The notes below the pieces were generated by a model. That model was given only the letters and a program-made list of their open reading frames with translations, ran no database searches and was not told the DNA's origin. From NCBI GenBank assembly GCA_902781505.1, contig CACZJL010000001.1, forward strand, positions 124,001-188,000: a DNA stretch of 64,000 nucleotides. The letters run 5' to 3'. This DNA is from an uncultured Lachnospiraceae bacterium. Lineage in GTDB: Bacteria; Bacillota; Clostridia; Lachnospirales; Lachnospiraceae. Positions 6,003 to 64,000 of the stretch are shown here, one piece after another (within the stretch, counting starts at the first letter, position 1; the number at the start of each line of letters is the position of its first letter). A program made the position numbers and the translations under genes.

Positions 6003-6033
6003 ATTTTCCCTTTCAACTTCTTTTCGAAAAGGA

Positions 6034-6065
6034 AGCATGCAATCGGGTATTCCCGATTGCATGCT
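6034..6065 (-). terminator. 14-bp perfect hairpin between acpP and rnc
   Basis: Two 14-base arms (6034-6047 and 6052-6065) are perfectly complementary around a 4-base loop. On the minus strand the stem is followed by a broken pyrimidine tract (CTTCCTTTTC), not a clean T run. It could be a leaky terminator that limits rnc-smc-ftsY relative to the abundant acpP transcript, or an RNase III processing site; both are inference. Confidence 0.6.
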
Positions 6066-6088
6066 CCGAAAAATTTGTCTTTAACAGA

Positions 6089-6319
6089 TTATTTTAAAGC
6101 GGTTGTAATCTGATCAACAGCTTCCTGCACTGTTGTGATGTGCTCTAATGCATCATCCGGGATTGAGATGCTGAATTCATCTTCGATACCGGTTACAATC
6201 TGGAACACATCGAGAGAATCTGCATGAAGATCCTCTGCAAATCTGGACTCTGCCTTGATTTCGTCTTCGTCGATGTTTAATACATCAGCAATGATACTTT
6301 TTAACTTTTCAAATTCCAT
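6089..6319 (-). CDS. acpP: Acyl carrier protein
   Basis: This small acidic carrier holds growing acyl chains on a 4'-phosphopantetheine arm in fatty acid synthesis. The 76 residues contain the attachment site DSLD with Ser35. I choose the ATG at 6317-6319, preceded by GGAG; the longer in-frame reading adds a basic 22-residue stretch that overlaps plsX and does not resemble the family. It lies 46 bases after plsX and upstream of rnc, a common Firmicute arrangement (plsX-acpP-rnc-smc). No fab genes are present in the window. Confidence 0.95.
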   Translation of the reverse strand: MEFEKLKSIIADVLNIDEDEIKAESRFAEDLHADSLDVFQIVTGIEDEFSISIPDDALEHITTVQEAVDQITTALK

Positions 6320-6365
6320 AATTTTTCTCCTTATCTGGTTTGTCTGACACTTAGCATGTGGCTTT

Positions 6366-7385: not shown

Positions 7386-7455
7386 TATGGCACCCTCCCG
7401 CTCTAAAATTACTTAAATATTTTACTATAGAACGGGGTAAGCTGTAAACAAGAAA

Positions 7456-7485
7456 AAACCGTGGGTCCAACTGAACCCACGGTTT
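7456..7485 (-). terminator. Rho-independent terminator after rpmF
   Basis: An 11-bp stem (arms 7456-7466 and 7475-7485) with an 8-base loop is followed on the minus strand by a run of T. It closes the yceD-rpmF transcript before plsX. Confidence 0.85.
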
Positions 7486-7506
7486 TAATCATGTACTGAT
7501 TAACAA

Positions 7507-7686
7507 TTAGTCAACAGCAACGATTTCCTTCTTGTTATAAGAGCCGCATGCCTTGCATACTCTGTGAGGCATCATAAGGGCGCCACACTTGCTGCACTTT
7601 ACAAGATTTGGAGCAGACATCTTCCAGTTAGCTCTTCTCTTGTCTCTTCTTGCCTTAGAGGACTTATTCTTTGGACAAATTGACAT
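7507..7686 (-). CDS. rpmF: 50S ribosomal protein L32
   Basis: This small zinc-binding protein of the large ribosomal subunit is 59 residues long. It starts MSICPKNKSSKARRDKRR, has the basic linker RRANWKMSAPNLVKC, and carries two CxxC knuckles (CSKC and CKAC) typical of the zinc-binding L32 form. The ATG follows GGGAGGTG. It sits directly downstream of the YceD/DUF177 gene, the conserved partner of rpmF in bacteria. Confidence 0.97.
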   Translation of the reverse strand: MSICPKNKSSKARRDKRRANWKMSAPNLVKCSKCGALMMPHRVCKACGSYNKKEIVAVD

Positions 7687-7703
7687 GTTTACACCTCCCT
7701 TTT

Positions 7704-8210
7704 TTACTTAATGATAATATCTTTGAAAACAGACATTCGTGGATCAGGAACTTCCCTGTCACAACCACATTCTCCCTCATTGAGATTATGCCCGCAGACC
7801 GGGCAGAGTCCCAAACAATCTTCTCGGCAAAGAACTTTGCCAGGAAGCTTGAGAAGAATCTCATCGTAAACTAGCCTGTCCACGTCAAGGTTGTATCCAT
7901 CAATATAGTCTTGGTCTTCCTGAGTCTCAATATCCGTACATGGGACTAAAGCTGTACGCTCAAATTCATAGGAAAGAGGAACTTCCACATCACACAGGCA
8001 CCTGTCACATGGCATGATTAATACCACATCGCCAAAGCCTTTGACTGCGATTTCATCCTTGCTGCTCTTTCTGATCGAAAAAGTAATATCAGATTTTGAC
8101 TTGAAGCTGTAACAGCCGTAAACGGCACTCACCTGCTCCAGACCAAGGGAAGCTGTCATTTCTAATTTGTCTTTTGGACCGGATAAAAACTCTCTTAAAT
8201 CGATTAGCAT
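7704..8210 (-). CDS. YceD/DUF177 family protein
   Basis: This 168-residue protein belongs to the family almost always encoded just upstream of rpmF; in plants and bacteria the family is linked to 23S rRNA accumulation. Two cysteine groups are visible, CDRCLCD in the first half and CREDCLGLCPVCG near the C-terminus, consistent with metal binding. A near-perfect promoter lies directly upstream and an 18-base gap separates it from rpmF. The family assignment rests on the context and cysteine pattern; the biochemical role is not established here. Confidence 0.88.
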   Translation of the reverse strand: MLIDLREFLSGPKDKLEMTASLGLEQVSAVYGCYSFKSKSDITFSIRKSSKDEIAVKGFGDVVLIMPCDRCLCDVEVPLSYEFERTALVPCTDIETQEDQDYIDGYNLDVDRLVYDEILLKLPGKVLCREDCLGLCPVCGHNLNEGECGCDREVPDPRMSVFKDIIIK

Positions 8211-8257
8211 CCTTGTCTCCAGTTTGCTAAATTGTATGATAAAATCACACGAATGAT

Positions 8258-8286
8258 ATTATATTCATTCGTACGTATTTTGTCAA
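8258..8286 (-). promoter_or_regulatory. Consensus SigA promoter for yceD-rpmF
   Basis: Both hexamers match consensus exactly on the minus strand: TTGACA at 8286-8281 and TATAAT at 8263-8258, with a 17-bp spacer. The -35 box sits 3 bases past the ackA stop codon, so this promoter starts a new strong transcript for ribosomal protein L32. Confidence 0.9.
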
Positions 8287-8289
8287 TAA

Positions 8290-9486
8290 TTATTTTGTAA
8301 GCCTGAGTGTTTCTCTTGCAATTGCGAGTTCCTCGTTTGTAGGAATTACGCAAACCTTAACCTTGGAATCCGGTGTAGAGATAATAGCTGCAGAGCCGAT
8401 AGCGCCCTCGTTAGCAGCCTTGTCAATCTTAACGCCAAGGTATTCGAAGTAGTCAAGGATGAGGCTTCTGATGAATGGATTGTTTTCACCAACACCAGCT
8501 GTAAATGTGATTGCATCTACACCATTTAAGCTTGTTACATAAGAACCGATGTACTTTGCAATACGGTATACGTAAGCTGCAAGAGTATCCTTTGCAATCT
8601 GGTTGCCATTGTTGTACTCAGCGATTACATCTCTCATATCGGAAGAAATACCGGACATACCAAGCAAACCGGACTTCTTGTTTAAGATGTTAAGCATTTC
8701 GCTTACGGAGATGTTCTCATGGTTGCAGATGAACTCAACGATAGCAGGATCGATATCACCGGAACGTGTTCCCATGATAAGACCTTCAAGTGGAGTAAGA
8801 CCCATGGATGTATCTACGCACTTACCGCCAACAGATGCAGAGATAGAAGCACCGTTACCTAAGTGGCATACGATAACCTTACCGTTGTTCTGATCAAGAC
8901 CGGCGAACTTAAGTGTTTCGTTAGATACGAACATATGAGATGTTCCGTGGAATCCATATCTTCTTATGTGGTACTTTTCATAGTACTCACGAGGAATAGC
9001 GTAAAGGTAAGCCTTTGGTTCCATAGAACCACCGAAAGCTGTATCCCAAACTGCTACATTCTTCTTACCGGGCATAGCCTTCTCAACAGCTTCGATACCG
9101 ATGAGGTTAGCAGGGTTGTGAAGAGGACCAAGGTCGAAGCACTCACGTATTACGCTCTTTACATCTTCATCAACGATTACGGAATCCATGTACTTTTCAC
9201 CAGCGTGAAGTACACGATGACCTACTGCATAGATTTCGTCTGTGCTCTTGATTACGCCGTGTTCTGGATCAACTAAAGCCTTAAGAACTAAGTCGATAGC
9301 AACCTTATGATCAGACATAGGCTGTTCTACGACGAACTTGTCCTTGCCTGTTGGCTTATGTGTAAGAATAGAACCTTCGATACCGATTCTCTCTACAAGA
9401 CCCTTTGCGATTACGCTCTCATCATCCATGTTGATCAGCTGATACTTAAGGGATGAAGAACCGCAGTTAATAACTAAGATATTCAT
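8290..9486 (-). CDS. ackA: Acetate kinase
   Basis: This enzyme transfers phosphate from acetyl-phosphate to ADP, giving acetate and ATP, the substrate-level phosphorylation step of mixed-acid and acetogenic fermentation. The 398 residues match the family length. Visible motifs are the N-terminal NCGSSSLKYQL (7-17), GHRVLHAGE, HLGNGASI, MGTRSGDIDP and GVGENN. The ATG follows AGGAG. It lies 23 bases downstream of pta, forming the standard pta-ackA operon. Confidence 0.97.
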   Translation of the reverse strand: MNILVINCGSSSLKYQLINMDDESVIAKGLVERIGIEGSILTHKPTGKDKFVVEQPMSDHKVAIDLVLKALVDPEHGVIKSTDEIYAVGHRVLHAGEKYMDSVIVDEDVKSVIRECFDLGPLHNPANLIGIEAVEKAMPGKKNVAVWDTAFGGSMEPKAYLYAIPREYYEKYHIRRYGFHGTSHMFVSNETLKFAGLDQNNGKVIVCHLGNGASISASVGGKCVDTSMGLTPLEGLIMGTRSGDIDPAIVEFICNHENISVSEMLNILNKKSGLLGMSGISSDMRDVIAEYNNGNQIAKDTLAAYVYRIAKYIGSYVTSLNGVDAITFTAGVGENNPFIRSLILDYFEYLGVKIDKAANEGAIGSAAIISTPDSKVKVCVIPTNEELAIARETLRLTK

Positions 9487-9509
9487 GTGTTTCTCCTAAA
9501 ATTTAAAAA

Positions 9510-10511
9510 TTAGTGCTTTGCATTCTGTGCCTGAACTGCTGTAAGTGCAACAGTACCAACGATATCGTCAGCATAGCAGCCACGGGACAGATCATTTACA
9601 GGATAAGCAAGGCCCTGAAGAACCGGACCATAAGCTTCAGCCTTAGCGAGTCTCTGAACGAGCTTGTAGCCAATGTTACCAGCTTCAAGTGAAGGGAAGA
9701 TTAATGTGTTAGCATGACCGGCTACTTCGCTGTCCGGAGCCTTTAAAGAAGCTACAGATTCAACAAGTGCAGCGTCGAGCTGAAGTTCACCGTCAACCTT
9801 AAGTCCTGGATAGTTTTCCTTAGCGATCTTAACGGCGTCAGCAACCTTTGTTACATCATCATGCTTAGCAGAACCCTTTGAAGAGTAGGAAAGCATTGCA
9901 ACCTTGGCTTCCTTACCAACGAATGTTTCAAAGCTGTCAGCGGAAAGCTTTGCGATTTCTGCAAGCTTAGCAGAATCAAGATCTGTGTTAACTGCGCAGT
10001 CAGCAAATACGAATAAACCGTTCTCGCCTAAATCACAGTTTGGAACTTCCATAAGGAAGAAGCCTGATACAGAGCTGATGCCGGGAGCACACTTTAATAA
10101 CTGAAGTGCTGGTCTGATTGTGTTACCTGTAGAATGGCATGCGCCGGAAACTGCACCGTCAGCATCTCCACACTTAACCATGAGGCATGCATAGTACATG
10201 TAATCCTTCTCCATCTGTTCTTTCGCTGCTTCAGGTGTCATACCCTTCTTAGCTCTTAATTCAACAAACTTGTCAATATACTTCTGCTTATTTGGGTCAT
10301 TGAAAGGATCAACGATTGTAGCACCTGTAAGGTCGAATCCCTCGCCGTTCTTAGCGATTTCTTCCGGAGTACCGATCAGAACGATGTTAGCGATACCTTC
10401 CTTTAAAATCTTTTCTGCAGCTTCGAATGTTCTCTTGTCCATAGACTCTGGAAGAACGATAGTCTTCTTGTCTGCTTTAGCTTTTTCCTTGATCAAGTCA
10501 ATAAATGCCAT
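9510..10511 (-). CDS. pta: Phosphate acetyltransferase
   Basis: Pta converts acetyl-CoA and phosphate to acetyl-phosphate, the substrate of the next gene, ackA. The protein is the short form of 333 residues without the N-terminal DRTGG regulatory domain. It begins MAFIDLIKEKAKADKKTIVLPES and contains GACHSTGNTIRPALQL and the C-terminal GLAYPVNDLSRGC segment. The ATG at 10509-10511 follows AAGGAGGAG, preferable to an in-frame start 10 codons further upstream. Confidence 0.96.
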   Translation of the reverse strand: MAFIDLIKEKAKADKKTIVLPESMDKRTFEAAEKILKEGIANIVLIGTPEEIAKNGEGFDLTGATIVDPFNDPNKQKYIDKFVELRAKKGMTPEAAKEQMEKDYMYYACLMVKCGDADGAVSGACHSTGNTIRPALQLLKCAPGISSVSGFFLMEVPNCDLGENGLFVFADCAVNTDLDSAKLAEIAKLSADSFETFVGKEAKVAMLSYSSKGSAKHDDVTKVADAVKIAKENYPGLKVDGELQLDAALVESVASLKAPDSEVAGHANTLIFPSLEAGNIGYKLVQRLAKAEAYGPVLQGLAYPVNDLSRGCYADDIVGTVALTAVQAQNAKH

Positions 10512-10559
10512 TTCAAATCTCCTCCTTGTAATTGAAGCCATTTTGGCTCAGATAAATAA

Positions 10560-10588
10560 ATTATAGAACAATTTCTTTTTTGAAACAA
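10560..10588 (-). promoter_or_regulatory. Promoter of pta-ackA
   Basis: On the minus strand TTGTTT (10588-10583) and TATAAT (10565-10560) are separated by 17 bp. It lies in the 141-base gap shared with the divergent tmcAL gene. Confidence 0.7.
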
Positions 10589-10652
10589 GTCGCGTGATTG
10601 TTCTAAATTATATCCAATTATGATAAAATATCTGTAATCAAGGGAGGTGCCT

Positions 10653-11945
10653 ATGAAAGCCGTCGGCATAATTGCAGAATATAACCCACTTCACAAGGGT
10701 CACGAATATCATATATCAGAGGCCAGACGCCAGTCTGGAGCCGACTGTACCGTAGCTGTAATCTCCGGCAATTTTGTCCAGCAGGGAAGGCCATCCATTC
10801 TTGGCAAATATTCCAAAGCCTGCCAGGCGCTTCTTGCAGGTGTTGACCTCGTGCTCGAGCTCCCAGTCTTCTACGCTACATCCAGTGCAGAAAAATTTGC
10901 CGAAGGCTCCGTAAAAACACTGAGTGCAATGGGCGTAAAGGAAATCTGTTTCGGTTCTGAAACACCTGATCCAGCAGGATTTTGCTTAGTTTCCGACATC
11001 CTTTTAAAAGAGCCTGAGGAATACAGGCAGGTACTAAAGACTAATCTTGCCGCAGGTATTTCCTTTCCAAAGGCCAGGGAACAAGCACTTGTATCGTATT
11101 TTAAAACACTGAGAAATCATAATGAAACCGTGCTTTCCGATAAGGAGCTGAAGAAAATCCTGACAGGTTCCAATAATAATCTCGGACTCGAATATTATAA
11201 AGCCGCCTCGCGATTCTCCGGTGACATTCAATTTCTGCCGGTAAAACGACTAGGCAGTGGATACAATGAACGCGATATTAAGGCAGAGGGTTACAAGAGT
11301 GCTACTGCCCTCAGGGCCGATGTTGCCCTTTCAGAGGCAACATTCACGGAGCTTTCTTATGATTTCTTAAGCAACGTTCCGGAACAGACCAGATGCCATC
11401 TGCAGAGTACATACAAAAAGCAATGGCCGATTTTCATGGATGATTTCAGCGGGCATTTCCTGTATCTTATGAATGTTTTCCTGCACGCTGCCGAATATAA
11501 CACGAAGGAATGCGCAACAATTCTTTCGTCCTTTTATGATGTCAGTGAAAACCTTGCATTTCGAATTCTGCGCCTGTACAGAGAAAAATTCACGACACTG
11601 ACGGACCTTTGCGACCGTGTTAAAAACAAGCAGATAACCTATTCTCACGTCAGTCGTGCTCTGATTCATATTCTTCTCGGACTGACAGAAGAAAGAAAGT
11701 CTTTTTATGAAGGTCCTTCAGTCCCTTACATCAGGGTTCTTGGCATGAATCAGAAGGGGCAGCAGTACCTGAAAGAAGCTGCTGCGAACTTAGACGGATC
11801 AATTCCAATCATAGTAAGTCCCGGAGGTAAAGAAACACTTCTGCAGGATGATGTCTTTGCTTCAAGTCTTTATAATCAGGTTATGTCCGGGAAATTTCAT
11901 TACGAACTGGCGCCGGAATATCGCCAGAAACCAATCATTATGTAA
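10653..11945 (+). CDS. tmcAL: tRNA(Met) cytidine acetate ligase TmcAL
   Basis: TmcAL makes N4-acetylcytidine at the wobble position of elongator tRNA-Met using ATP and free acetate. The 430-residue protein starts MKAVGIIAEYNPLHKGH, where HKGH is the nucleotidyltransferase HIGH-like motif, followed by SGNFVQQGRPS and CFGSETPD. The ATG follows GGGAGG at good spacing; an in-frame GTG 6 bases upstream overlaps the ribosome site. It is divergent from pta-ackA, the acetate-producing pathway, which fits its unusual acetate substrate, although shared control is only inferred. Confidence 0.92.
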   Translation: MKAVGIIAEYNPLHKGHEYHISEARRQSGADCTVAVISGNFVQQGRPSILGKYSKACQALLAGVDLVLELPVFYATSSAEKFAEGSVKTLSAMGVKEICFGSETPDPAGFCLVSDILLKEPEEYRQVLKTNLAAGISFPKAREQALVSYFKTLRNHNETVLSDKELKKILTGSNNNLGLEYYKAASRFSGDIQFLPVKRLGSGYNERDIKAEGYKSATALRADVALSEATFTELSYDFLSNVPEQTRCHLQSTYKKQWPIFMDDFSGHFLYLMNVFLHAAEYNTKECATILSSFYDVSENLAFRILRLYREKFTTLTDLCDRVKNKQITYSHVSRALIHILLGLTEERKSFYEGPSVPYIRVLGMNQKGQQYLKEAAANLDGSIPIIVSPGGKETLLQDDVFASSLYNQVMSGKFHYELAPEYRQKPIIM

Positions 11946-11950
11946 AAAAC

Positions 11951-11983
11951 ACCCTCCTTACTGGTTTGTCCAGTAAGGAGGGT
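11951..11983. terminator. Terminator between convergent tmcAL and DUF4012 gene
   Basis: A 14-bp perfect stem (11951-11964 and 11970-11983) has a 5-base loop. On the minus strand it is followed by GTTTTTTAC, so it ends the polA-to-DUF4012 operon. It may also slow plus-strand transcription leaving tmcAL. Confidence 0.85.
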
Positions 11984-12020
11984 ACATATCACCTTTATTA
12001 AAAGTACGGGATTTTTATTC

Positions 12021-13820
12021 TTAACGATACTCTGTAAGCGTTGGTGTATGATGAACCTTAAGTGGTGCATCAATTCCAGGTGCAGTTGTCACATTATATG
12101 TCGCAAGGATTTCAGAATCTCTGTAAAGGTTGATATCCAGATTATAACCCATGGAAATATCCATATAATCCGTAACTGCAGTCTGACTGCCGTCACTCAT
12201 CGTAAAATCTGAAATCACTCCGCCAACCGGAGCTGTAACATAAAGCGATCCTTCTGTCAGCTCATATTCACCGGTAACATATTCATTTGTAACATCCTTC
12301 AGTTCCTCATCCGTTGACGTATTCCGAAGCAATACATTAACGGTATAGGTTCTTGACCTATCCTGATTTACAGTCGGTTCACTGACACTTGTCTCAATAT
12401 CAATAAAGTAACCAAGCTTCTGACCATGGTAGAAACCAAGGTATACACCGGATGTTGCATCCGGAATACCATTATTAATGACACCCGAAACTCCCGAAGA
12501 AATCATCACATTCTGCTCAGCTTCATCTCTCATCCAGATGTACATAGACCGGTCTTCCACGCAGCTTGCAAACAGATTGTAGTAGGCCATAATATTCTTT
12601 GCATCAAATCCTGACACAAACATGGTCATCGCTTTCTTAGCCGTCTCTGAGAACAACTGGTCTGCATACTTTGCGTTTCTGGTGCTAAAACTACGATTGT
12701 TGAAATACTTAAAATACAAATCCCGTTCAATAACACGAGCTGCATTCGTTCCATCAACTTCCGTTCCATCACTTAACGTAATAGGACCGGACATTGCAAG
12801 GACCTTCTGAACAATCGTCGGAGTGAAGGAAATCACTCCATCAACTTGCACATCATTATACATCTCATAACCGGAAGCCATAATTTCTGCTGCACGGCCA
12901 AAATCCGGCGTATAATTCGCATCCCAGGTTACATAGAGCTTGTCATTGAAAAGATTTCTCTCCTGCATGGTAATCCCTAAGGAATCCGGCGTATCTTTAT
13001 AGAAGCAGTCATAAACTGTCTTAAAATCGCCGATTGTAAGGACGCCATCTGTAATCTGAATTGTACCAACTGAACCGACAAAGCCTCCAAGCGGACGCAT
13101 TTCTGAAGTATTTGCAGCAGTCAGAACGTAAAGGTGATCTGCCTCATCTCCGCATATTACCTTTAAAACAGGAAGGAGATCCGAAATCTCATCATACTGC
13201 TCGTCAATCTTTGCAAATTTCTCCTGATATTCTTTGAATTTTCCGTCCTTATCAACTAAGGACAGATTCATTTTTGAAACCTGTTTGGCAATCGTTCTTG
13301 CTTCCGGCATTACACCTTCCGCAAACGAAATGTAGGAGCCGACCGCTCGCACATTAAAGCCGGAATCTCCAACCTTAATAGAGCTTAAAGGGTACTCGGC
13401 AAATACATCTGCTGCCGGTGTCAGGATTGTATCTGACGCCTCGTCCACAATAGAAAGGAGCTGTCTTACAGAACGAATCTGCTTTCCGACAACCGGAAGG
13501 AAAGAATGCATCTTCCAAAGCGGAGAATCCAGCTTCTTTTCTAATTTGGCCGTAGTTTCCTTTGTCTTTTCAATCTGCACCTTGGCTTCTTCCGGCTCAC
13601 CGTCCTTAATCAGCTTCACCGACGTCTGCAGACTCGCCTTCATGAACGACGCATCTTTTTTCAATTGCTTTGCATCCATCGCTGTAATAAGCCCAATGAT
13701 TATAATCAGCAGAAAGATTGCGGATGCAATGCCCAATTTAAGACTTTTTTTCTTCTTTTTTTTCTTCTGTAACCACTGGATATAGCTTCCAATGTCTCCA
13801 TCTTTATTTGGATCGTACAT
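12021..13820 (-). CDS. DUF4012 membrane-anchored protein
   Basis: This 599-residue protein has a short cytoplasmic N-terminus with a lysine run (KKKKKKK, about 19-25), one transmembrane segment (about 31-47) and a large predicted extracellular part. The extracellular part has an initial coiled coil and then the DUF4012 region with the recurring hallmark TAANTSEMRPLGGFVGSVG. Such proteins are often found near exopolysaccharide or wall-polymer genes, but no reaction is assigned. It lies 12 bases after the UPF0210 gene and ends the operon. The lysine tract is encoded by runs of 8 and 7 A, a possible slippage site. Confidence 0.8.
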   Translation of the reverse strand: MYDPNKDGDIGSYIQWLQKKKKKKKSLKLGIASAIFLLIIIIGLITAMDAKQLKKDASFMKASLQTSVKLIKDGEPEEAKVQIEKTKETTAKLEKKLDSPLWKMHSFLPVVGKQIRSVRQLLSIVDEASDTILTPAADVFAEYPLSSIKVGDSGFNVRAVGSYISFAEGVMPEARTIAKQVSKMNLSLVDKDGKFKEYQEKFAKIDEQYDEISDLLPVLKVICGDEADHLYVLTAANTSEMRPLGGFVGSVGTIQITDGVLTIGDFKTVYDCFYKDTPDSLGITMQERNLFNDKLYVTWDANYTPDFGRAAEIMASGYEMYNDVQVDGVISFTPTIVQKVLAMSGPITLSDGTEVDGTNAARVIERDLYFKYFNNRSFSTRNAKYADQLFSETAKKAMTMFVSGFDAKNIMAYYNLFASCVEDRSMYIWMRDEAEQNVMISSGVSGVINNGIPDATSGVYLGFYHGQKLGYFIDIETSVSEPTVNQDRSRTYTVNVLLRNTSTDEELKDVTNEYVTGEYELTEGSLYVTAPVGGVISDFTMSDGSQTAVTDYMDISMGYNLDINLYRDSEILATYNVTTAPGIDAPLKVHHTPTLTEYR

Positions 13821-50918: not shown

Positions 50919-52139
50919 TCAGCCGATTGTAACCTTCTTAAAGTTCTTCTTGCCCTTCTGGACTACTAAACCTTCAGCAAATTCAGCCTTAGCGAAAGTC
51001 TGTGCGATATCTTCGACCTTGCTATCATTGACCTTCATACCACCCTGCTGGATTGTACGACGTGCTTCACCACGGGAAGCAGCAAGACCTGCAGCTACTA
51101 AAAGTGTGATTGCGTCTACAGCATCATCCTTAAATTTATCAGCAGAGATTGTGGCAGCAGGCATATTTTCAGCATTTCCGCCAGTGAAGATTGCCTTAGC
51201 TGTCTCTTGTGCCTTCTTTGCTTCTTCTTCACCGTGAACCATGGATGTTAATTCAAATGCAAGAATTTCCTTAGCCTTATTAAGCTGAGCACCTTCCCAC
51301 TTATCCATCTCATCAACCTGATCAAGAGGAATAAATGTCATCATACGGATAAACTTAAGAACATCGGCATCATCGACATTTCTCCAGTACTGGTAGAAAT
51401 CATATGGAGATGTCTTTTCTGGATCAAGCCATACTGCGCCACCTGCAGTCTTACCCATCTTTGTTCCATCATGCTTAAGAAGAAGGTTGATTGTCATGGC
51501 AGATGCATCCTTACCAAGCTTCTTTCTGATCAGCTCAGTACCGGCAAGCATGTTGGACCACTGATCATCGCCACCGAACTCAAGGTTGCAGCCATAATCC
51601 TTATAGAGCTTGTAGAAATCATATCCCTGCATCAGCATGTAAGAAAACTCTAAGAAGGAAAGTCCGCTTTCCATTCTGTTTACATAGCATCTTGCACGAA
51701 GCATATCGTTAACAGAGAAGCATGGTCCGATTTCACGCATGAAATCAAGGAAGTTTAAGTTTCTTAACCAGTCAGCGTTATTAACGATTAAAGCCTTACC
51801 ATCAGAGAAATCGATGAAACGGCTCATCTGCTTCTTAAAGCATTCTACGTTGTGATCAATCATCTCTGTTGTCATCATCTTTCTCATATCAGAACGACCG
51901 GATGGATCACCAATCATGGCTGTACCGCCACCAATCAGAGCGATTGGCTTATTACCTGCAAGTTGAAGTCTCTTCATAAGAAGAAGAGCCATAAAGTGAC
52001 CAACATGCAGAGAATCTGCAGTTGGGTCAAAGCCGATATAGAATGTAGCCTTACCATTATTGATTAAATCTCTGATTGTCGATTCATCTGTAACCTGAGC
52101 AATCAGGCCTCTTGCAACTAATTCATCATAAAGTTCCAT
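50919..52139 (-). CDS. tyrS: Tyrosyl-tRNA synthetase
   Basis: This class I synthetase charges tRNA-Tyr. Of 406 residues, the HIGH-type motif is HVGH (45-48), the tyrosine pocket includes YMLMQGYDF and GGDDQWSNM, the KMSKS-type loop is KMGKT, and an S4 RNA-binding domain (about 340-400) ends the protein. AGGAGG precedes the ATG. Expression is controlled by the Tyr T-box immediately upstream. Confidence 0.97.
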   Translation of the reverse strand: MELYDELVARGLIAQVTDESTIRDLINNGKATFYIGFDPTADSLHVGHFMALLLMKRLQLAGNKPIALIGGGTAMIGDPSGRSDMRKMMTTEMIDHNVECFKKQMSRFIDFSDGKALIVNNADWLRNLNFLDFMREIGPCFSVNDMLRARCYVNRMESGLSFLEFSYMLMQGYDFYKLYKDYGCNLEFGGDDQWSNMLAGTELIRKKLGKDASAMTINLLLKHDGTKMGKTAGGAVWLDPEKTSPYDFYQYWRNVDDADVLKFIRMMTFIPLDQVDEMDKWEGAQLNKAKEILAFELTSMVHGEEEAKKAQETAKAIFTGGNAENMPAATISADKFKDDAVDAITLLVAAGLAASRGEARRTIQQGGMKVNDSKVEDIAQTFAKAEFAEGLVVQKGKKNFKKVTIG

Positions 52140-52200: not shown

Positions 52201-52468
52201 AGCAGGTGCTTTGTCCTAAAAAGGACGAAAGCACCTGCTTCGTGATACCACCTTTATTCATGAAAGGCTCACACCTTTCACCTCAGCGAGTCTCAGGACT
52301 CTGACATGTTAACGACTGTCGCCGTGAATCCCTACACAAGAAACTCTTCAGGATTCCTGCTCCAAGATGTATTTCGCAGCTTCCTGACCTTAGCCTCTCA
52401 GCAACCGGCTACTCTCTGTAAGCGGAATTTCTGTTACTTCTTCTTATCATTGCATTTGTATATGAAAT
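52201..52468 (-). promoter_or_regulatory. T-box riboswitch, tyrosine-specific, before tyrS
   Basis: The minus-strand leader has the T-box core AGGTGGTATCACG (52253-52241), a stem I region with AGAGAGTA and GCTGAGAGGC, and a specifier-loop context GAAATACATC in which TAC (52371-52369) is the tyrosine codon. A strong terminator stem (52201-52240) with a T run follows the T-box sequence. Uncharged tRNA-Tyr would pair at both sites and favour the antiterminator. The leader fills the 351-base gap between tyrS and pyk. Confidence 0.93.
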
Positions 52469-55297: not shown

Positions 55298-58200
55298 ATG
55301 AACGCTTATAAGTTGGGAATTGATATTGGTTCAACTACCGTAAAAATCGCAGTTCTTGACATGGATAACAAAATGCTCTTTGCAGATTATCAGAGACATT
55401 TTGCCAACATTCAGGAAACATTACAGGAACTGCTCGAAAAGGCAGTAAAAGAACTTGGGCCATTTGATATCTACCCTGTTATTACAGGTTCCGGCGGTCT
55501 TGCACTTTCCAAGAACTTAAATGTACCATTCTTCCAGGAAGTTGTAGCCGTTGCTACATCTCTCCAGGACTACGCTCCTCAGGTTGACGTAGCCATCGAA
55601 CTTGGTGGTGAGGATGCGAAAATCATTTACTTTACAAATGGTATCGACCAGCGAATGAACGGTATCTGTGCCGGTGGTACAGGTTCCTTTATCGATCAGA
55701 TGGCTTCTCTGCTTCAGACAGACGCGTCCGGTCTTAATGAGTACGCCAAAAACTACAAGTCTATCTATCCGATTGCTGCACGTTGCGGCGTATTTGCCAA
55801 ATCCGACATTCAGCCATTAATTAACGAAGGTGCAACAAAAGAAGACCTTGCCGCATCTATTTTCCAGGCAGTTGTAAATCAGACTATTTCCGGACTTGCC
55901 TGTGGTAAGCCAATCCGCGGCAACGTTGCATTCCTTGGTGGACCACTCCACTTCCTCTCTGAGCTTCGCCAATCCTTTATCAGAACTCTGGGCCTGAAGC
56001 CTGAGGAAATCATCGCTCCAGACCACTCACATCTTTTTGCAGCCATCGGTTCTGCCATGAACTACAAAGAAAACGTGAAGATGGAAGTTTCTGACCTGAT
56101 TGAAAAGTTAAAGAATAAGATTCAGTTAGAATTTGAAGTAGAACGTTTACAGCCATTATTTAAGGATGAAAAGGAATATGACACGTTCCACGAGCGCCAT
56201 GCAAAGGCACAGGTTGAAAAGGGTGACCTCTCTACTTACCATGGCAAATGCTACTTAGGTATCGATGCAGGTTCTACTACAACGAAGCTTGCCGTTGCTT
56301 CAGAAGACGGAAAGCTCCTGTATTCATTCTATTCAAATAACAACGGAAGCCCGATTGCTACTGCAATCCGTTCCTTAAAGGAAATTTATTCCATTAAGCC
56401 GACGGATGCTATAATCGTTGGCTCCTGCTCAACAGGTTACGGTGAAGCTCTTTTAAAGTCTGCTCTGATGCTTGATGAAGGTGAAGTAGAAACCGTTGCG
56501 CATTACTATGCAGCTGAATTCTTTGAACCAAGCGTAGACTGTATCATCGACATCGGTGGTCAGGATATGAAGTGTATCAAGATTAAGGATCATGCGGTTG
56601 ACTCCGTACAGCTGAACGAGGCCTGCTCTTCAGGATGTGGATCCTTCATCGAGACATTTGCCAAGTCCTTAGACTACTCTGTCATTGACTTCGCTAAGAT
56701 TGCTCTCTTTGCTGAACACCCGGTTGACCTTGGTACACGTTGTACCGTATTTATGAATTCCAAGGTTAAGCAGGCTCAGAAGGAAGGCGCTGAGGTTGGT
56801 GATATTTCCTCCGGACTTGCATATTCGGTAATCAAGAATGCCTTATATAAGGTTATCAAGATTTCTGACCCTAAGGAACTTGGTTCCCATATCGTTGTTC
56901 AGGGTGGAACATTCTATAATGATGCTGTTCTTCGTTCCTTTGAAAAAATTACCGGAGTTGACGTAATCCGTCCTGATATCGCAGGAATCATGGGCGCTTT
57001 CGGTGCTGCACTTATTGCAAGAGAACGTTGCGCCAATCAGGATAAGTCAACAATGCTCGATATTGCAGAAATCAACAGCCTTGAGTACTCCACAACACTT
57101 ACACGTTGTAAGGGATGTACAAATGCATGTCACCTCACAATCAACAACTTCTCCGGCGGTCGCCGTTTCATTACCGGTAACCGTTGCGAACGTGGACTTG
57201 GTATCGCTAAGAAGAAGGATCATCTTCCGAACCTCTTTGACTACAAGTTCCACAGACTCTTTGATTATGAGCCTCTGACCGAAGATCAGGCACCTCGCGG
57301 AACGGTTGGTATTCCAAGAGCATTAAACATGTATGAGAACTATCCTTACTGGTTCACCTTCTTTACGAACTTAGGTTACCGCGTTGTGCTTTCACCAAAG
57401 TCCAACCGTAAGGTTTATGAACTTGGTATCGAGTCCATTCCATCTGAGTCTGAGTGTTATCCTGCCAAGATTACTCATGGACATATCACTTGGCTCATCC
57501 GTAATGGCGTCAAGTTCATCTTCTATCCTTGTATTCCTTATGAGCACAAGGAAGTAGAGAACTCCAACAACCATTACAACTGTCCGATTGTTACTTCCTA
57601 CGCTGAGAATATCAAGAACAACGTAGAAGAATTAGTTACAGAAAACATCGACTTCCGCAATCCATTCCTTTCCTTCGAAAATGAAGAAATCATGGAAAAG
57701 CGTCTTGTTGAAGAATTTAAAGATATTCCTGCTTCCGAAGTGCGCAAAGCCGCGAAAGCCGCATGGAAAGAACAGATGCAGGCTAAGCGTGACGTTGAGA
57801 AGAAGGGTGAAGAAACATTAAAGCTTCTTCACGAAACAGGCAAGCACGGCATCGTTCTTGCAGGTCGTCCATACCATGTAGACCCTGAAATCAATCATGG
57901 TATTCCTGAGCTTATCAATTCCTATGACGTAGCTGTATTGACTGAGGACTCCATCTCCCACTTAGGTAAGGTAGACCGTCCTTTAATTGCGATGGACCAG
58001 TGGATGTACCATTCCAGACTTTACGCTGCTGCCAGCTATGTTCGTACTGATGACAGCCTCGACCTGATTCAGCTGAATTCCTTCGGCTGCGGTCTGGATG
58101 CCGTAACAACAGACACAGTATCAGATATCTTAAGAAACTCCGGTAAGATTTACACAGTTCTTAAGATTGATGAAGTAAACAACTTAGGTGCCGCAAGAAT

Positions 58201-59554
58201 TCGTATCCGTTCCTTACTTGCTGCTCTTCGCGTTCGTGAAGAAAAGAATGTAGAAACAGAAGTGAAGTCCGCAGCATTCAAGCGTGTTGAATTTACAAAG
58301 GAGATGAGGGAAGCAGGCTATACTCTCTTGTGCCCTCAGATGTCTCCAATGCACTTTGAGCTCTTACAGCCAGCTTTAAACAGCTGTGGCTATAACATCG
58401 AGATTCTCAATAACGATAACAAGTCGGCCGTTGATACCGGTGTTCGCTTCGTTAATAACGACGCCTGCTATCCATCCATGATGGTAGTCGGTCAGATTAT
58501 GAGTGCCGTTCTCTCCGGAAAGTACGATACACACAAGATTGCCATTCTGATTTCTCAGACAGGTGGTGGCTGCCGTGCATCTAACTACATCGGCTTCATC
58601 CGTCGTGCTCTGAAAAAGTGCGGACTTGAATACATTCCTGTAGTTTCTGTCAGCGTTCAGGGACTTGAGATCAACTCCGGCTGGACTTATTCCGTTCAGA
58701 TGGCTAAGAAGGCGCTCATGGCAATTGTCTACGGTGATGTCTTCTTAAACTGTGTATATCGCATGCGTCCATACGAAGTAACACCCGGAAGTGTCAACGC
58801 TCTCCATCAGAAGTGGGTAAAAATCCTTTCCGCACAGCTTTCTGCTAAGAAAGTTCATATGCGTGATTTCAAGGCAAATGTCCGCAAGATGATTGCTGAG
58901 TTCGATGCCATTCCGGTCACAAATGAAGTTAAGCCAAGAGTTGGTATCGTAGGAGAAATTCTTGTTAAGTTCCTTCCATCCGCTAACAACTACATTGTAG
59001 ATCTGTTAGAACGCGAAGGTGCCGAAGCAGTCGTTCCGGACTTAATCGGATTTGCCCTCTACTCTGCAAAGAATGCGGATTTCAAACGTGATAATCTTGG
59101 TGCAAGCAAAAAGACAGCATTCTTATCTGATGCGTTCATCAAATACATTGAATACTTCAGAAAGGCTGCTAACAAAGCCTTTGAAGAAAGTAAGCACTTC
59201 GACCGCTGGTCTACTGTTGAAGAAACCGCTGAAAATGCAAAAGGCCTCGTTTCTCTTGGTAACCAGACCGGTGAGGGCTGGCTCCTTACAGGTGAAATGG
59301 TTGAATTAATCAATCATGGTGCCGGCAACATCGTATGCTGTCAGCCATTCGGCTGTCTTCCAAACCACATCGTAGGTAAGGGGGTCATCAAGGAACTGAA
59401 GGCTAAGTATCCGGGAAGCAACATCATTGCAATCGACTATGATCCGGGCGCTTCTGAAGTTAACCAGCTCAACCGTATCAAGCTCATGCTGACACAGGCT
59501 AACAAGAACCTGAATCTTACAGAAACAGATTCGGTTAAAGTTGAACAGGCTTAA
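55298..59554 (+). CDS. Giant 2-hydroxyacyl-CoA dehydratase activase-type protein
   Basis: This 1418-residue cytoplasmic protein joins two BadF/HgdC-type ATPase domains: 4-260 with [19 protein letters not shown], Cys124 and Cys163; and 318-580 with [19 protein letters not shown], Cys443, Cys447 and Cys482. Next is a four-cysteine cluster (Cys604, 607, 611, 630). After it come a DUF2229 region and a C-terminal HgdB-like dehydratase half. In HgdC a [4Fe-4S] cluster bridging the dimer injects a high-energy electron into the dehydratase. Here activator and acceptor are one chain. The substrate is unknown; the protein is common in Clostridia. Confidence 0.88.
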
Positions 59555-59689: not shown

Positions 59690-60112
59690 CTATTTCTTAG
59701 ATTTCAGAGCTTTAATCAATCTATGTGTAACCTTCCGATATCTTAACGTAAAGAACTTGTACCTTGCATAAACTGCTGCTTTTCTACCGGTCAGAGACTT
59801 TAATTTTCCTGATCTGCCAACAGCCGTCACCAGCCCTATCAGATTACCAAAAAGGATTCCCTCTTCAATCATCGTCTGATTATCTCCAACAGCGGAAAAT
59901 TCCCCATCTCCCACCTCATAGATTCTATGCACTGCGAGCCGGTTCTGATGATCACGAAACAATACGATATTCCCAGGCTTTACATCCTGTATGCCGGCTG
60001 GCTCAATCGTAATCTGATCCTGCGGCTTAAAAAGCGGATACATACTGTATCCCGCAACCGGCACAATCACAGATTGTCCACTTCTTAAAAGCTGTTCAAC
60101 ATTTTGCTTCAT
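59690..60112 (-). CDS. S24/S26 (SipW-like) peptidase without membrane anchor
   Basis: The 140-residue protein has the signal-peptidase serine motif GYSMYPLF (Ser23) and, after the conserved DxVLFRD-like strand (PGNIVLFRD), LAVHRI with His62. The Ser-His pairing fits the SipW/archaeal-type dyad; bacterial LepB-type enzymes use Lys. GDNQT follows. No transmembrane helix is visible and the C-terminus is very basic, so it is probably cytoplasmic or peripheral. GAGG precedes the ATG. It is divergent from the PqqD/HPr-kinase fusion and exporter, suggesting that it trims a peptide or small protein for them. Confidence 0.82.
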   Translation of the reverse strand: MKQNVEQLLRSGQSVIVPVAGYSMYPLFKPQDQITIEPAGIQDVKPGNIVLFRDHQNRLAVHRIYEVGDGEFSAVGDNQTMIEEGILFGNLIGLVTAVGRSGKLKSLTGRKAAVYARYKFFTLRYRKVTHRLIKALKSKK

Positions 60113-60137
60113 CGTTCCTCATTTCACCTATATTACT

Positions 60138-60153
60138 GATGCATTCATGCATC
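60138..60153. repeat. Short palindrome in the divergent gap
   Basis: GATGCAT-TC-ATGCATC is a 7-bp inverted repeat in the 124-base gap between the peptidase and the PqqD/kinase gene. It may be an operator for both; there is no independent support. Confidence 0.3.
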
Positions 60154-60204
60154 TGATTTCTGGTTCGTATTTATCTATATTGTAGCATTTTTTCGCAAAA
60201 CTGA

Positions 60205-60210
60205 TATAAT
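60205..60210 (+). promoter_or_regulatory. Likely -10 box of the PqqD/kinase-exporter operon
   Basis: A consensus TATAAT lies 27 bases before the ATG, but no good -35 hexamer is visible, so activation by a regulator is possible. The ribosome site GGGGAGG follows. Confidence 0.5.
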
Positions 60211-60236
60211 TAATTAAAAAAGGGGAGGTTAATCTT

Positions 60237-61457
60237 ATGAAACAATCCGCATATTTTAAACTTGTTACCCTTAACGGTGAGTCATATCTGTTTCCTTTTG
60301 GACAGGCATTAATGTCCTCCCCTGTAAGTGTAAAGCTTGATGAGGGTGGCGTGTTTTTATGGGATGCACTATCTAAAGATATTACCTTGTCTGACCTGCA
60401 GTCCCGATTTTTCTCCTTCGTTCATGCTGATGAAGAAGAACGTGACCAGGTCAACAGTGATGTAGAAACCTTCATCAACAATCTTCGTATGCGTTCCATG
60501 ATTGTTGATTATCCGAATGACCTAAGCATATTAAAAGCTAGTTTTCTCACTGTTCCTGAGATTCATGGACATGAGCTCTTCCCGATGCTGATTGCCGCAA
60601 CCGGAATTGAAATCAGGAAAGACGATTCCATCAGTGAGAAGCTGCTTAATCTGATTCCAAAAGAATTTCTCACATTCAAGAGTATACGTCATCACTTCGA
60701 TTATCATATTCAGATACTTCCAAAGAATCCGAATATTAACTTAAGCGATGGCAGTACTGTTTTTGAAGACTGGGAACTTCGCATTGTTCGTTTTACAAAC
60801 GGATTCAGGATTTTCTATAAAGAATACAATCACTTTAAGATTGTAGAAGCCACGGATTCTGTCCTTACCATTTATCAGGAGCCGGTTCCTGTGAATGGAG
60901 ATTACGCTAAAATCCAACAGGAATTATCCCGCATCTGTCGCGCGGGTGTGTATCTAAAGCTTGAAAAAAAACAGATTTATTCCCTGCACGCTGCTTCCGT
61001 TGACATCGATGGAACCAGTGCCGGGACAGGTGCTATCCTCTTTACTGCCAAGAGTGGCACGGGCAAGTCAACGCAGGCAGGAATCATGAATCAGACCTTT
61101 GGGTCTACCATGATTAACGGCGACTGCAATCTTATCAGCCTTAAAAACAATAAGGCCATTGTCATGGGACAACCATGGTGCGGAACCTCAGAAATTTACG
61201 ATCTCAAAGAGCATAAATTAACGGCTGTTGTAAAGCTCGTACGAACTAAAGAGAAAGAAATACCTTCTGTTCAGAAGCTGAACAAGTCAGAGGCTGCTGT
61301 CACAATCCTGCAGCGTATTATCAGCCCTCTCTGGACAAAGGAACAATTGCAGGATGCAGCACGCTGGGCTGAAGAATTCAGTAAAACAACCACTGTCTTT
61401 CGCATGAAGTGCGATCTCACCGACCGCGGAATCAGACAACTCATGGAGCACTTATGA
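60237..61457 (+). CDS. PqqD-like domain fused to an HPr-kinase-like P-loop domain
   Basis: Of 406 residues, the N-terminal 20-95 match the PqqD/RRE pattern (SVKLDEGGVFLWDALSKDITLSDL ... DVETFINNLRMRSMI), a winged-helix fold that binds leader peptides of ribosomally made products. Residues about 245-400 form an HprK-type P-loop domain with His251, Walker A TAKSGTGKST (270-279), INGDCNLI (Asp296) and GQPWCGTSEI. Similar kinases phosphorylate some lasso peptides. The middle (100-240) is unassigned. Its stop overlaps the exporter start (ATGA). Phosphorylating or merely binding a substrate are both possible. Confidence 0.8.
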   Translation: MKQSAYFKLVTLNGESYLFPFGQALMSSPVSVKLDEGGVFLWDALSKDITLSDLQSRFFSFVHADEEERDQVNSDVETFINNLRMRSMIVDYPNDLSILKASFLTVPEIHGHELFPMLIAATGIEIRKDDSISEKLLNLIPKEFLTFKSIRHHFDYHIQILPKNPNINLSDGSTVFEDWELRIVRFTNGFRIFYKEYNHFKIVEATDSVLTIYQEPVPVNGDYAKIQQELSRICRAGVYLKLEKKQIYSLHAASVDIDGTSAGTGAILFTAKSGTGKSTQAGIMNQTFGSTMINGDCNLISLKNNKAIVMGQPWCGTSEIYDLKEHKLTAVVKLVRTKEKEIPSVQKLNKSEAAVTILQRIISPLWTKEQLQDAARWAEEFSKTTTVFRMKCDLTDRGIRQLMEHL

Positions 61458-63214
61458 AAAATAAATTCAAATTTTATCTGAAACGAATCCGTGAAGGCCG
61501 TTTAAAAGAAATGGCCAGAGAAACCATCTTCGTCTACAGTTATGCAAGACATTACTGGAAGGCAATGATTGTATATACCCTGCTCGGTCTGACTGGCACC
61601 GTTGTATCTCTTCTCTCCGGTTTTGTTTCAAGAGACCTCGTCGATATCATCACCGGACATCAGACCGGCGTATTACTTGAGACATTCTGTATGATGATTG
61701 CTGTTGCCATCAGTTCACAGCTGATTACCATGCTTTCGAGTTACTTTACAACCTGGGTCTATAATCATGTAAACAATGAGGTTCGAGCTGACATCTTTAA
61801 AAAACTGATTGATACTGATTGGGAAGCCTTATCGCAATATCACACCGGTGACCTGATGACCAGGTGGAATTCCGATTCCTCAACCATCAGTAACGGCATC
61901 CTCTCCTGGCTTCCAAACGTCGTCATTAACTTCTTCAAGTTCGTATCCGCACTCGGAGTCGTACTTGCTAACGACGCCTCCTTTGCTGTCTTTGCTCTGC
62001 TTGGAATCCCGGTATCACTCGTGATGTCGAAGAGACTCCTGACCCGAATGCAGAACAATAATAAAAGAAGCATGGCCATGTCCTCAAAAATGAGTGGCTT
62101 CAATCAGGAAGCATTCTCCAATATTCAGACATTAAAGGCCTTCGATCTTCTCAGGCTTTACGTAGATCGCCTAAAACAGCTTCAAAAGGAGCAGCTCGAC
62201 ATGCAGCTTGAATTCTCACGCATGTCCATGGCGACGAGCTTCCTGATGTCTCTTGTCGGACTCGGCGTCTCCTACGCCTGCTACGGTTGGGGAATCTACC
62301 GCGTGTGGCAGGGAGCCATTACATACGGCACTATGACGATGTTTCTGACCCTTGCCAGTACCTTGACAGGTTCCGTAAATTCCCTGGCAAATGCGGTGCC
62401 TCAGGCGATTACAATTACGACGAGCGCGGGCCGATTAATGGAAATCCTTGATATGCCTCAGGAAGATTACTCAAAGCTCGAGGAAGCAAGGGAATTCGGT
62501 AACCGCTATGGCTATAACGGAATGGGACTGAAATTAACAGATATCTCCTATCACTATCACAACGGTGATAACGTATTCAGTCACGCAAACCTTCAGGCGA
62601 ATCCGCATGAAATTATTGCTCTCATCGGTCCATCCGGTGAAGGTAAGACGACTATGATGCGCCTGCTCCTGTCTCTTATTAAACCTCAAAGCGGAGAAGC
62701 CGTTCTCACGGCAGATGATCAGACTTATGAACTGAGTCCTTCCGTCAGACAGTTCTTCTCCTATGTACCACAGGGAAACACAATGTTTTCCGGTACGATT
62801 GCATATAATATGCGACAAGTAAAACCTGATATCAGTAATAAAGAGATTATTGAGAATCTGAAGATGGCAGAAGCCTGGGACTTTGTTAAGGAACTTCCCG
62901 GAGGTATCGACTATAATCTTCAGGAACGCGGAGGCGGTATCTCAGAAGGACAGGCACAGCGCCTTTCCATTGCAAGAGCACTGATACGAAAGTCTCCTGT
63001 TCTGCTTCTTGATGAAGCAACTTCCGCACTCGACCCTGAGACAGAACGCCGTGTATTGAAAAATATCTTGAAAGACGACTATCCTCGTACCTGCATTGTA
63101 ACCACACATCGCATGACCGTATTAAACCAATGCACTCGAGTGTATGAATTAAAGAATAAGCAATGTGTTGAACTGAGCAAGGAAGAAATTTCAGCAAAGC
63201 TAAATTTGAACTGA
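61454..63214 (+). CDS. ABC exporter (fused membrane and ATPase domains)
   Basis: This 586-residue type IV ABC exporter half has six membrane helices in residues about 35-325 and an ATPase domain (about 358-575). The ATPase motifs are Walker A GPSGEGKTT (392-400), Q-loop Gln440, signature ISEGQ (496-500, where LSGGQ is usual), Walker B VLLLDEA (516-522) and His552. There is no N-terminal C39 peptidase, so leader removal would need another protease, such as the adjacent S26-like one. The ATG at 61454 overlaps the previous stop, with GGAG upstream; it works as a homodimer by family precedent. Confidence 0.9.
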   Translation: MKNKFKFYLKRIREGRLKEMARETIFVYSYARHYWKAMIVYTLLGLTGTVVSLLSGFVSRDLVDIITGHQTGVLLETFCMMIAVAISSQLITMLSSYFTTWVYNHVNNEVRADIFKKLIDTDWEALSQYHTGDLMTRWNSDSSTISNGILSWLPNVVINFFKFVSALGVVLANDASFAVFALLGIPVSLVMSKRLLTRMQNNNKRSMAMSSKMSGFNQEAFSNIQTLKAFDLLRLYVDRLKQLQKEQLDMQLEFSRMSMATSFLMSLVGLGVSYACYGWGIYRVWQGAITYGTMTMFLTLASTLTGSVNSLANAVPQAITITTSAGRLMEILDMPQEDYSKLEEAREFGNRYGYNGMGLKLTDISYHYHNGDNVFSHANLQANPHEIIALIGPSGEGKTTMMRLLLSLIKPQSGEAVLTADDQTYELSPSVRQFFSYVPQGNTMFSGTIAYNMRQVKPDISNKEIIENLKMAEAWDFVKELPGGIDYNLQERGGGISEGQAQRLSIARALIRKSPVLLLDEATSALDPETERRVLKNILKDDYPRTCIVTTHRMTVLNQCTRVYELKNKQCVELSKEEISAKLNLN

Positions 63215-63230
63215 CAAAAGATCCAAAAAA

Positions 63231-63260
63231 GGCGGAAGAACCAAGATTGATTCTTCCGCC
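63231..63260. terminator. Bidirectional terminator between exporter and small-protein gene
   Basis: A perfect 10-bp stem GGCGGAAGAA/TTCTTCCGCC (63231-63240 and 63251-63260) is followed by TCTTTTATTT, with an A run on the other side. Confidence 0.9.
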
Positions 63261-63276
63261 TCTTTTATTTCTGTCT

Positions 63277-63678
63277 TTAATTCCACGCATTTCTGCACTG
63301 CATATCAGCATTCACAAGCTGTAATCCTTCCGGACCATTCACTGTAAGTTCATAGCTGAATTCCTTTCCCGGATCATTGCCTGACCATGTGTCAGAAATA
63401 AGGGTAGCGCCCGATACGGATGTATTTGCTCTTCCATACCCTGATATTATTGGCTCACTGAACGTAAATGTTGCACGAACTATACCAAAATGTCCCTGAA
63501 CCGTTGCATGCTTTCCTGAAACTACAAGAGTATATTGATTCTTATTACCCTCAACTGGATTAAGAGACGCTGTTATCTGCCAATCACTATTCGTATTCAT
63601 AATCGTATTTGAACCGGAAGCCGCATAAACGCCTTCGCTCAAATCTTCATTTACTAAAATAACCGGTCTTAAATACAT
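63277..63678 (-). CDS. Small beta-rich protein with leader-like N-terminus and C-terminal MQCR motif
   Basis: I do not recognise a characterised family. The 133 residues begin MYLRPVILVNEDLSEGVYAASG, an acidic leader-like segment ending in a small-residue motif. They continue as alternating hydrophobic and polar strands (YTLVVSG, VRATFTFSEP, FSYELTVNG) and finish LQLVNADMQCRNAWN with a single cysteine, Cys128. No Sec signal peptide is seen. GGAGATGAGG precedes the ATG. It shares the C-terminal pattern with the next gene. Given the neighbouring exporter, peptidase and PqqD domain, it is a plausible export substrate. Confidence 0.7.
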   Translation of the reverse strand: MYLRPVILVNEDLSEGVYAASGSNTIMNTNSDWQITASLNPVEGNKNQYTLVVSGKHATVQGHFGIVRATFTFSEPIISGYGRANTSVSGATLISDTWSGNDPGKEFSYELTVNGPEGLQLVNADMQCRNAWN

Positions 63679-63759
63679 TACCTCATCTCCTTTTCACTTA
63701 AGTTCCCCGAATTCAATGTCATTAGTTTGTTATACATTTTTTCTCCCTACAAAAACCAC

Positions 63760-64000
63760 TTACATTACGTCGCGGCACTGCATGGAAACATCTAACAACT
63801 GAAGGTTCTCATCATTAGATTCAATTCTGAACTCATGATGAAGAACACGACCTGGCGTACCAAATCCATGGTCTCCTCTTGCTTCACACATTGCATTACT
63901 AGGCTTATTAGCAGAAATAGACATTTCACCTGAAATAGTCATAGCCTGTCTTACGGTATTTGAAAACGTAAAATAGAAGAACGCCTTATCCTGATGCTGT
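63760..64000 (-). CDS. Paralog of the small beta-rich protein, N-terminus beyond the window
   Basis: The minus-strand frame is open to the right edge; the first in-window Met (63942) is internal because coding continues upstream (...FFYFTFSNTVRQ). The visible 79 residues include FTFS and end LQLLDVSMQCRDVM, the same signature as the neighbouring 133-residue protein (LQL-x4-MQCR-N/D), with another cysteine in SNAMCEARGD. It lies 81 bases upstream of that gene, probably in the same transcript. Confidence 0.68.
   Translation of the reverse strand, partial: QHQDKAFFYFTFSNTVRQAMTISGEMSISANKPSNAMCEARGDHGFGTPGRVLHHEFRIESNDENLQLLDVSMQCRDVM

Follow-up and report, generated by a model that had tools for sequence, protein, structure and literature searches.

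Gene content of the locus

We analysed a 64,000-nucleotide stretch of DNA from an uncultured Lachnospiraceae bacterium, hereafter the window (G000:C1:124001-188000; the home genome comprises 1.89 Mb in 33 contigs), with a focus on a candidate system for processing and exporting leader-tagged proteins at its right-hand end. The original prediction, made from the sequence alone, described a peptidase, a fusion protein, an exporter and small tagged substrates there, and all of its gene coordinates were reproduced. The first gene (59690..60112, minus strand) encodes a probably soluble serine peptidase of the S26B type (SipW/SEC11-like), recognised by Ser23/His62 and by Pfam and TIGR matches, which is the predicted leader peptidase. 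Two plus-strand genes follow. By profile matches, 60237..61457 encodes a fusion of a PqqD domain, the leader-binding recognition element (RRE) of ribosomally synthesised and post-translationally modified peptides (RiPPs), with an HprK-like P-loop domain. Its neighbour (61454..63214) encodes an ABCB-type ATP-binding cassette (ABC) exporter. The exporter matches Pfam ABC_membrane and ABC_tran and lacks a C39 peptidase domain, as had been proposed. We moved its likely start from the mechanical open reading frame (ORF) start, GTG 61409, to ATG 61454, giving a 4-base overlap with the fusion gene.

This rightward fusion-exporter unit is divided from a leftward cargo unit by a perfect, terminator-like convergent hairpin at 63231..63260 (GGCGGAAGAA...TTCTTCCGCC; -20.1 kcal/mol). 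The cargo unit holds three minus-strand genes in tandem, spaced by 46 and 81 bases, each with a Shine-Dalgarno-like sequence ahead of it (AAAGGAG for SP1). SP1 (63277..63678) has 133 residues, which the ORF and an AlphaFold model divide into a leader (residues 1-22) and a beta-sandwich (24-130). The C-terminal part of SP2 lies at 63760..64000, and reading past the window edge extends its gene by 179 bases. SP3 lies outside the window at 64226-64630 in window numbering (G000:C1:188226-188630), which makes three small paralogues where two had been described. Just past the window on the same strand, in continued numbering, are a PF14907 nucleotidyltransferase gene adjoining the cargo genes (64768-65934; Pfam E 1.7e-28) and a cluster for Pel exopolysaccharide, with pelG and pelF at 68347-71312 (PF16933, E 2.4e-140; PelF-type DUF3492, E 1e-75).

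A common leader on diverse cargo proteins

The three home paralogues share an ungapped 22-residue leader of the form YxxP...EGVYAASG, which in SP1 is MYLRPVILVNEDLSEGVYAASG (63613..63678, minus strand). The leader-like N-terminus of the original prediction is retained, and the shared feature is wider than EGVYAASG, being a fixed-length leader that starts with YxxP. We assembled 41 leader proteins from 21 leader genomes, the genome G096, one further contig and three phages. Counting back from the last leader residue, Tyr occupies position -21 in 39/41, Pro -18 in 40/41, Glu -8 in 41/41 and Gly -7 in 40/41, with Val or Ile at -6 and Tyr or Phe at -5. The G096 leader is divergent and lacks YxxP. 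All 41 leaders end in Ala, Gly or Ser at -3, Ser at -2 and Gly at -1.

Signal peptidases cut after small residues at -3 and -1. The invariant A/G/S-S-G ending fits this rule, with a small residue at P3, Ser at P2 and Gly at P1. From the statistics of the 41 ungapped leaders, cleavage is predicted after the conserved A-S-G, which is Gly22 of SP1. Cleavage after V/I-Y-A, considered as a classical -3/-1 site, was rejected, since 8 of the 41 have Met, Leu or Thr at its P1 position. No Sec-like hydrophobic stretch was found in the cargo.

Downstream of the leader the proteins diverge. Their cores span 53-138 residues and fall into eight single-linkage groups with no mutual similarity detected (BLAST E 1e-3, 41 proteins). 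The largest is a beta-sandwich group with 23 members, followed by four-cysteine cores (9) and short Cys-rich cores (3); the rest are a ubiquitin-like pair (by eye) and four singletons. On this basis a single homologous cargo family was rejected. The tagged substrates of the original prediction stand, and its single substrate type gives way to one leader on several unrelated cores. No residue is common to the cores just after the leader. An address label would be expected to look like this, one conserved tag shared by otherwise unrelated domains.

Two tagged proteins with the leader variant EGVFMASG (L034:9474-9956 and L035:9763-10176) have cores that appear ubiquitin-like (beta-grasp) by eye. 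Neither has a fusion or exporter nearby, and their genome is 68% complete.

In the AlphaFold model of SP1, residues 1-22 have a predicted local distance difference test (pLDDT) score below 50 and strands begin at residue 24. The model of a phage homologue is likewise disordered over residues 1-20 and then folds as a beta-sandwich; the input alignments held 3 and 5 rows. Among solved structures, the SP1 model is most similar to a CBM2 cellulose-binding domain (Z 9.3, 2.2 A over 94 residues), and SP1 has no Pfam CBM match. As a hint only, a CBM2-like fold would suit a polysaccharide partner. Searches of Pfam, NCBIfam and PDB with the small proteins of the window gave no toxin or known-fold similarity above noise.

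Machinery, genomic distribution and phage-borne cargo

The proposed SipW-like peptidase with Ser23 and His62 is borne out. Both residues are invariant in 10 homologues, and a Ser-His pair is what the S26B branch predicts. The protein matches Pfam Peptidase_S24 above the cut-off (5.8e-6) and reaches 47.0 bits (2.4e-12) against the archaeal/SipW-type signal peptidase model TIGR02228, just below the cut-off of 51.85. Against PDB, the family profile matched only SEC11A and SEC11C, weakly (E 0.011-0.013). Its 140 residues show no N-terminal hydrophobic segment; a WLFLRPVRP stretch conserved close to the C-terminus of the homologues could allow membrane association.

The PqqD half of the fusion falls under the Pfam cut-off in the window protein alone (E 0.0015) and is clear in one homologue (E 9e-10). 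When the family profile was compared with PDB, the best matches were the lasso peptide RRE TbiB1 (E 0.002) and two lasso PqqD chaperones (E 0.014-0.018), and lasso_PqqD models match 5 of the 13 fusion homologues. All 13 weakly match HprK_rel_A (TIGR04352; best 6.6e-6, window protein 10.9 bits) and miss its curated cut-off of 200 bits. Their P-loop (SGxGK), His251 and Asp296 are invariant. These matches agree with the fusion architecture originally proposed, and we treat the HprK-like half as a putative kinase, the equivalence of Asp296 to the Mg/catalytic residues of HprK not being structure-based. A PqqD-HprK-like protein with a degenerate P-loop, possibly decaying, occurs at L039 (G023:C24), 9245-10351, with exporter and cargo absent nearby.

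We examined how often the leader and the fusion co-occur in 397 genomes of the family, with a threshold of E below 1e-5 for the leader and counting only full-length fusions. The leader is found in 22 genomes and the fusion in 23; 20 encode both, 2 the leader only, 3 the fusion only and 372 neither (Fisher p 1.7e-28). Carrier genomes belong mostly to different genera and are related, so this and the following p-values overstate independence. The co-occurrence is far beyond chance. One leader-only genome has a completeness of 68%, and in the other the fusion match is split in two pieces. Among the fusion-only genomes, one encodes a leader-like protein with EGIYAGSG and one has a degenerate P-loop. 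In the loci of 22 genomes, G096 included, the exporter lies beside the fusion or cargo in 22, the peptidase is present in 18 and the nucleotidyltransferase in 15, several of the absences falling at contig ends. Exporters at other loci are 55-63% identical to the home exporter. Small proteins that were common without fusion and exporter would have spoken against the original prediction, and this is not what we observe. The association it anticipated extends to leader, fusion and exporter; the C-terminal LQL...MQCR it also named is limited to two of the home genome's own paralogues. In an order-wide sample the full-length fusion was found only in the home genome and one other member of its family, and in a phylum-wide sample only in the home genome.

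The locus is also linked to Pel genes. Upstream on the cargo strand lie genes for PelG, PelF, DUF2304, DUF2194 and DUF4832/DUF4874 proteins and an epimerase-headed PelD-like protein. Every one of the 22 leader genomes encodes PelG, against 15/101 that lack the leader (p 8e-15; 3e-7 when restricted to one sample), and the distance between the PelG and fusion genes is 8-19 kb in 18 genomes. A Gram-positive Pel cluster, pelDEADAFG with DUF4832, has been described (PMC7112168). It shares with the present locus the linked PelF, PelG, DUF4832 and epimerase-headed PelD-like genes; that description mentions no PqqD protein (PMC7112168), and the tagged cargo and export set are additional here. Stand-alone PqqD-domain proteins adjoin the epimerase-headed PelD-like gene at L030:7692-8051 (Pfam) and L040:8025-8288 (by eye), and another (L027:13260-13532, by eye) follows the nucleotidyltransferase.

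Scanning viral sequences with the leader yielded three credible contigs from IMG/VR (L043, L044 and L045); a fourth match, L046, was rejected as spurious for want of YxxP. In all three contigs the tagged gene lies directly 3' of an exonuclease-type gene, matched to phrog_284 in two and assigned by look and position in the third. Terminase genes lie downstream in two and a portal gene in one. Two of the phage cargo proteins are beta-sandwiches with full-length homology to SP1 (E 2e-10); the third occupies the same slot and is of the four-cysteine type. The phage stretches examined, partial for the larger contigs, held no homologue of the fusion, exporter, peptidase or nucleotidyltransferase, a fusion query found no match in viral sequences, and no relatives of the phage cargo were found among annotated phage genomes. 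The simplest reading is that the cargo-carrying phages would use the host's machinery.

Relation to known systems and interpretation

The closest parallels are lasso peptide clusters with a kinase and a nucleotidyltransferase, such as those for paeninodin and pseudomycoidin. They share with our system a PqqD-type leader binder, YxxP, an HprK-like kinase (putative in our system), a nucleotidyltransferase, a separate leader peptidase and an ABC exporter without C39. Lasso RREs bind leaders through the YxxP motif (PMC12710340), and lasso leaders carry YxxPxL at -17 to -12 and Thr at -2 (PMC10368454), compared with Tyr -21, Pro -18 and Ser -2 here. A lasso B1 protein speeds its HprK-like kinase and helps the peptidase (PMC10368454), and covalent fusion of RRE and kinase therefore makes sense. 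In pseudomycoidin, the nucleotidyltransferase puts a hexose on the phosphate added by the kinase (PMC8498205). The present system differs in having RRE and kinase in one protein, an S26B peptidase in place of the transglutaminase-like (C96) B2 protein, and cores that are domains of 53-138 residues rather than lasso peptides. Such cores do not have the lasso features of short length and a Gly1 with Asp/Glu for ring closure. Among the ORFs read at these loci, none was recognised as an asparagine-synthetase-like cyclase (C), the large home ORFs beside the cargo having been checked by Pfam, and no C96 B2 homologue was recognised beside the S26B-type peptidase. With cyclase, B2 peptidase and lasso core absent, this is not a lasso cluster; it appears to work like a RiPP leader-processing and export system.

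Other known systems overlap in part. The HPr-rel-A system also pairs an HprK-like kinase (HprK-related kinase A, TIGR04352) with a PqqD-family protein (PqqD_rel_X, TIGR04353), whereas here scores are far under the curated cut-offs, the two are fused, and an exporter, an S26B peptidase and tagged proteins are added. SipW/TasA secretion combines an S26B Ser-His peptidase with secreted beta-sandwich matrix proteins and is exopolysaccharide-linked; in the present system the peptidase has no visible transmembrane segment, the cargo has no Sec signal, and ABC export is predicted. Double-glycine systems with C39-ABC transporters (peptidase-containing ABC transporters, PCATs) place a short conserved leader, with small residues before the cut, on diverse small proteins. 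Here there is neither C39 nor a GG motif, and a separate peptidase and an RRE-kinase fusion are present. A sister system at L041 (G032:C6:47000-65000), 5384-12107, encodes a PF14907 nucleotidyltransferase, a YVRP...YVAACG precursor, a radical SAM enzyme, an HprK-like kinase without PqqD, an exporter and an S26-like peptidase. Since it shares all four machine types, the two appear to belong to a wider clan. Homologues of the sister precursor occur in 5/150 family genomes, two of which also have the leader system. We found no match for the leader sequences and no paper on this gene combination in the open-access literature that was searched, within which the prediction of an undescribed system holds.

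Taken together, the reading we favour, with a probability of roughly two in three, is a RiPP-like system in which a leader directs folded proteins through modification, cleavage and export, with the cell surface or the Pel matrix as their destination. On the genomic side, one leader is carried by unrelated cores, the parts co-occur and are linked, the RRE is closest to the lasso type, and the locus is tied to Pel genes; from these observations we infer leader binding, cargo modification, the cleavage site, export and a matrix role. The PqqD domain would bind the 22-residue leader via YxxP. The HprK-like domain and the PF14907 nucleotidyltransferase would then modify the cargo with phosphate and perhaps sugar-phosphate, and the S26B peptidase, probably soluble, would cut after A-S-G. 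The ABC exporter would move the cargo, a small folded protein of beta-sandwich, Cys-rich or other type, out of the cell, where it may settle on the surface or in the Pel exopolysaccharide matrix. The core of the original prediction, in which fusion, separate peptidase and C39-less exporter handle tagged substrates, survives in this model; its parts list was incomplete, omitting the nucleotidyltransferase, the lasso kinship and the Pel link. Several observations weigh against the model. No invariant phospho-acceptor outside the leader was found among the cores, and their C-terminal residue is not a conserved Ser, unlike in paeninodin. The phage cargo model matched integrin, macroglobulin and mu-homology domains equally well and did not single out CBM2. 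The nucleotidyltransferase is absent from the examined stretch in seven genomes, PelG also occurs in genomes without the leader, and we infer export from the exporter's presence alone.

The same genes might instead export toxins or bacteriocin-like effectors, that is, diversified tagged cargo aimed at competitors, phages having versions of their own. The cargo is indeed very diverse and often multi-copy, it includes Cys-rich classes, its types are swapped in the phage slot, and both RRE and exporter look like their counterparts in lasso peptide systems, many lasso peptides being antibacterial. However, inspection by eye showed no conserved immunity-like gene next to the cargo, the Pel matrix genes constantly co-occur, and the commonest core is a beta-sandwich, possibly CBM2-like, for which no toxin similarity was found. 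We consider this explanation rather unlikely.

Less probable still is a strict RiPP pathway, in which the product modified by kinase and nucleotidyltransferase, not the folded protein, is what matters. The RRE, kinase, nucleotidyltransferase, peptidase and exporter each belong to a RiPP tailoring type, and the sister locus pairs its precursor with a radical SAM enzyme. Nevertheless, the cores are of domain length, take domain folds in the models and have no common short modifiable motif. The original prediction saw no radical SAM enzyme or cyclase, and in agreement with this neither these nor a cyclodehydratase was recognised in the system's own loci. The leader could also be a tail, for regulation or for chaperone binding, on cytoplasmic proteins that act on Pel synthesis, with the exporter handling a different substrate. 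A regulator would be compatible with the Pel link, and exporter and cargo are connected by genomic association alone. Yet the constant placement of the exporter, the frequent signal-peptidase-type peptidase, a leader end that obeys signal-peptidase rules in every case and the tagging of phage cargo make such a tail highly improbable.

If the leader-guided export model is correct, RRE-guided machinery, known for small modified peptides, would by the same logic appear to handle whole folded domains, and the leader would appear to be a portable address tag across unrelated cores, including phage-borne ones. Our data suggest an unrecognised route for placing proteins outside the cell in some gut bacteria of one family, with phages also carrying tagged proteins. 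The tag would be a new secretion signal searchable in genomes, the cargo would provide candidate protein components for the Pel matrix of Clostridia, and the phages would be a case of exploiting host export machinery. A signal-peptidase-type protease would also join the enzymes that process leaders; a review of RiPP leader proteases names no protease of this type in its main text (PMC10885120). A more specific version, in which the RRE-kinase picks folded proteins through a lasso-type leader for a distinct secretion route, sugar-phosphate anchors them to the Pel matrix and phages add cargo that alters the host surface or matrix, is put forward only tentatively.

Elsewhere in the window, a T-box leader (Rfam RF00230, E 3.3e-27) lies at 52218-52459 on the minus strand, just upstream of the gene at 50919-52139. 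The plus-strand gene at 55298-59554 encodes a protein of 1418 residues that by eye resembles a 2-hydroxyacyl-CoA dehydratase activator/ATPase fusion.

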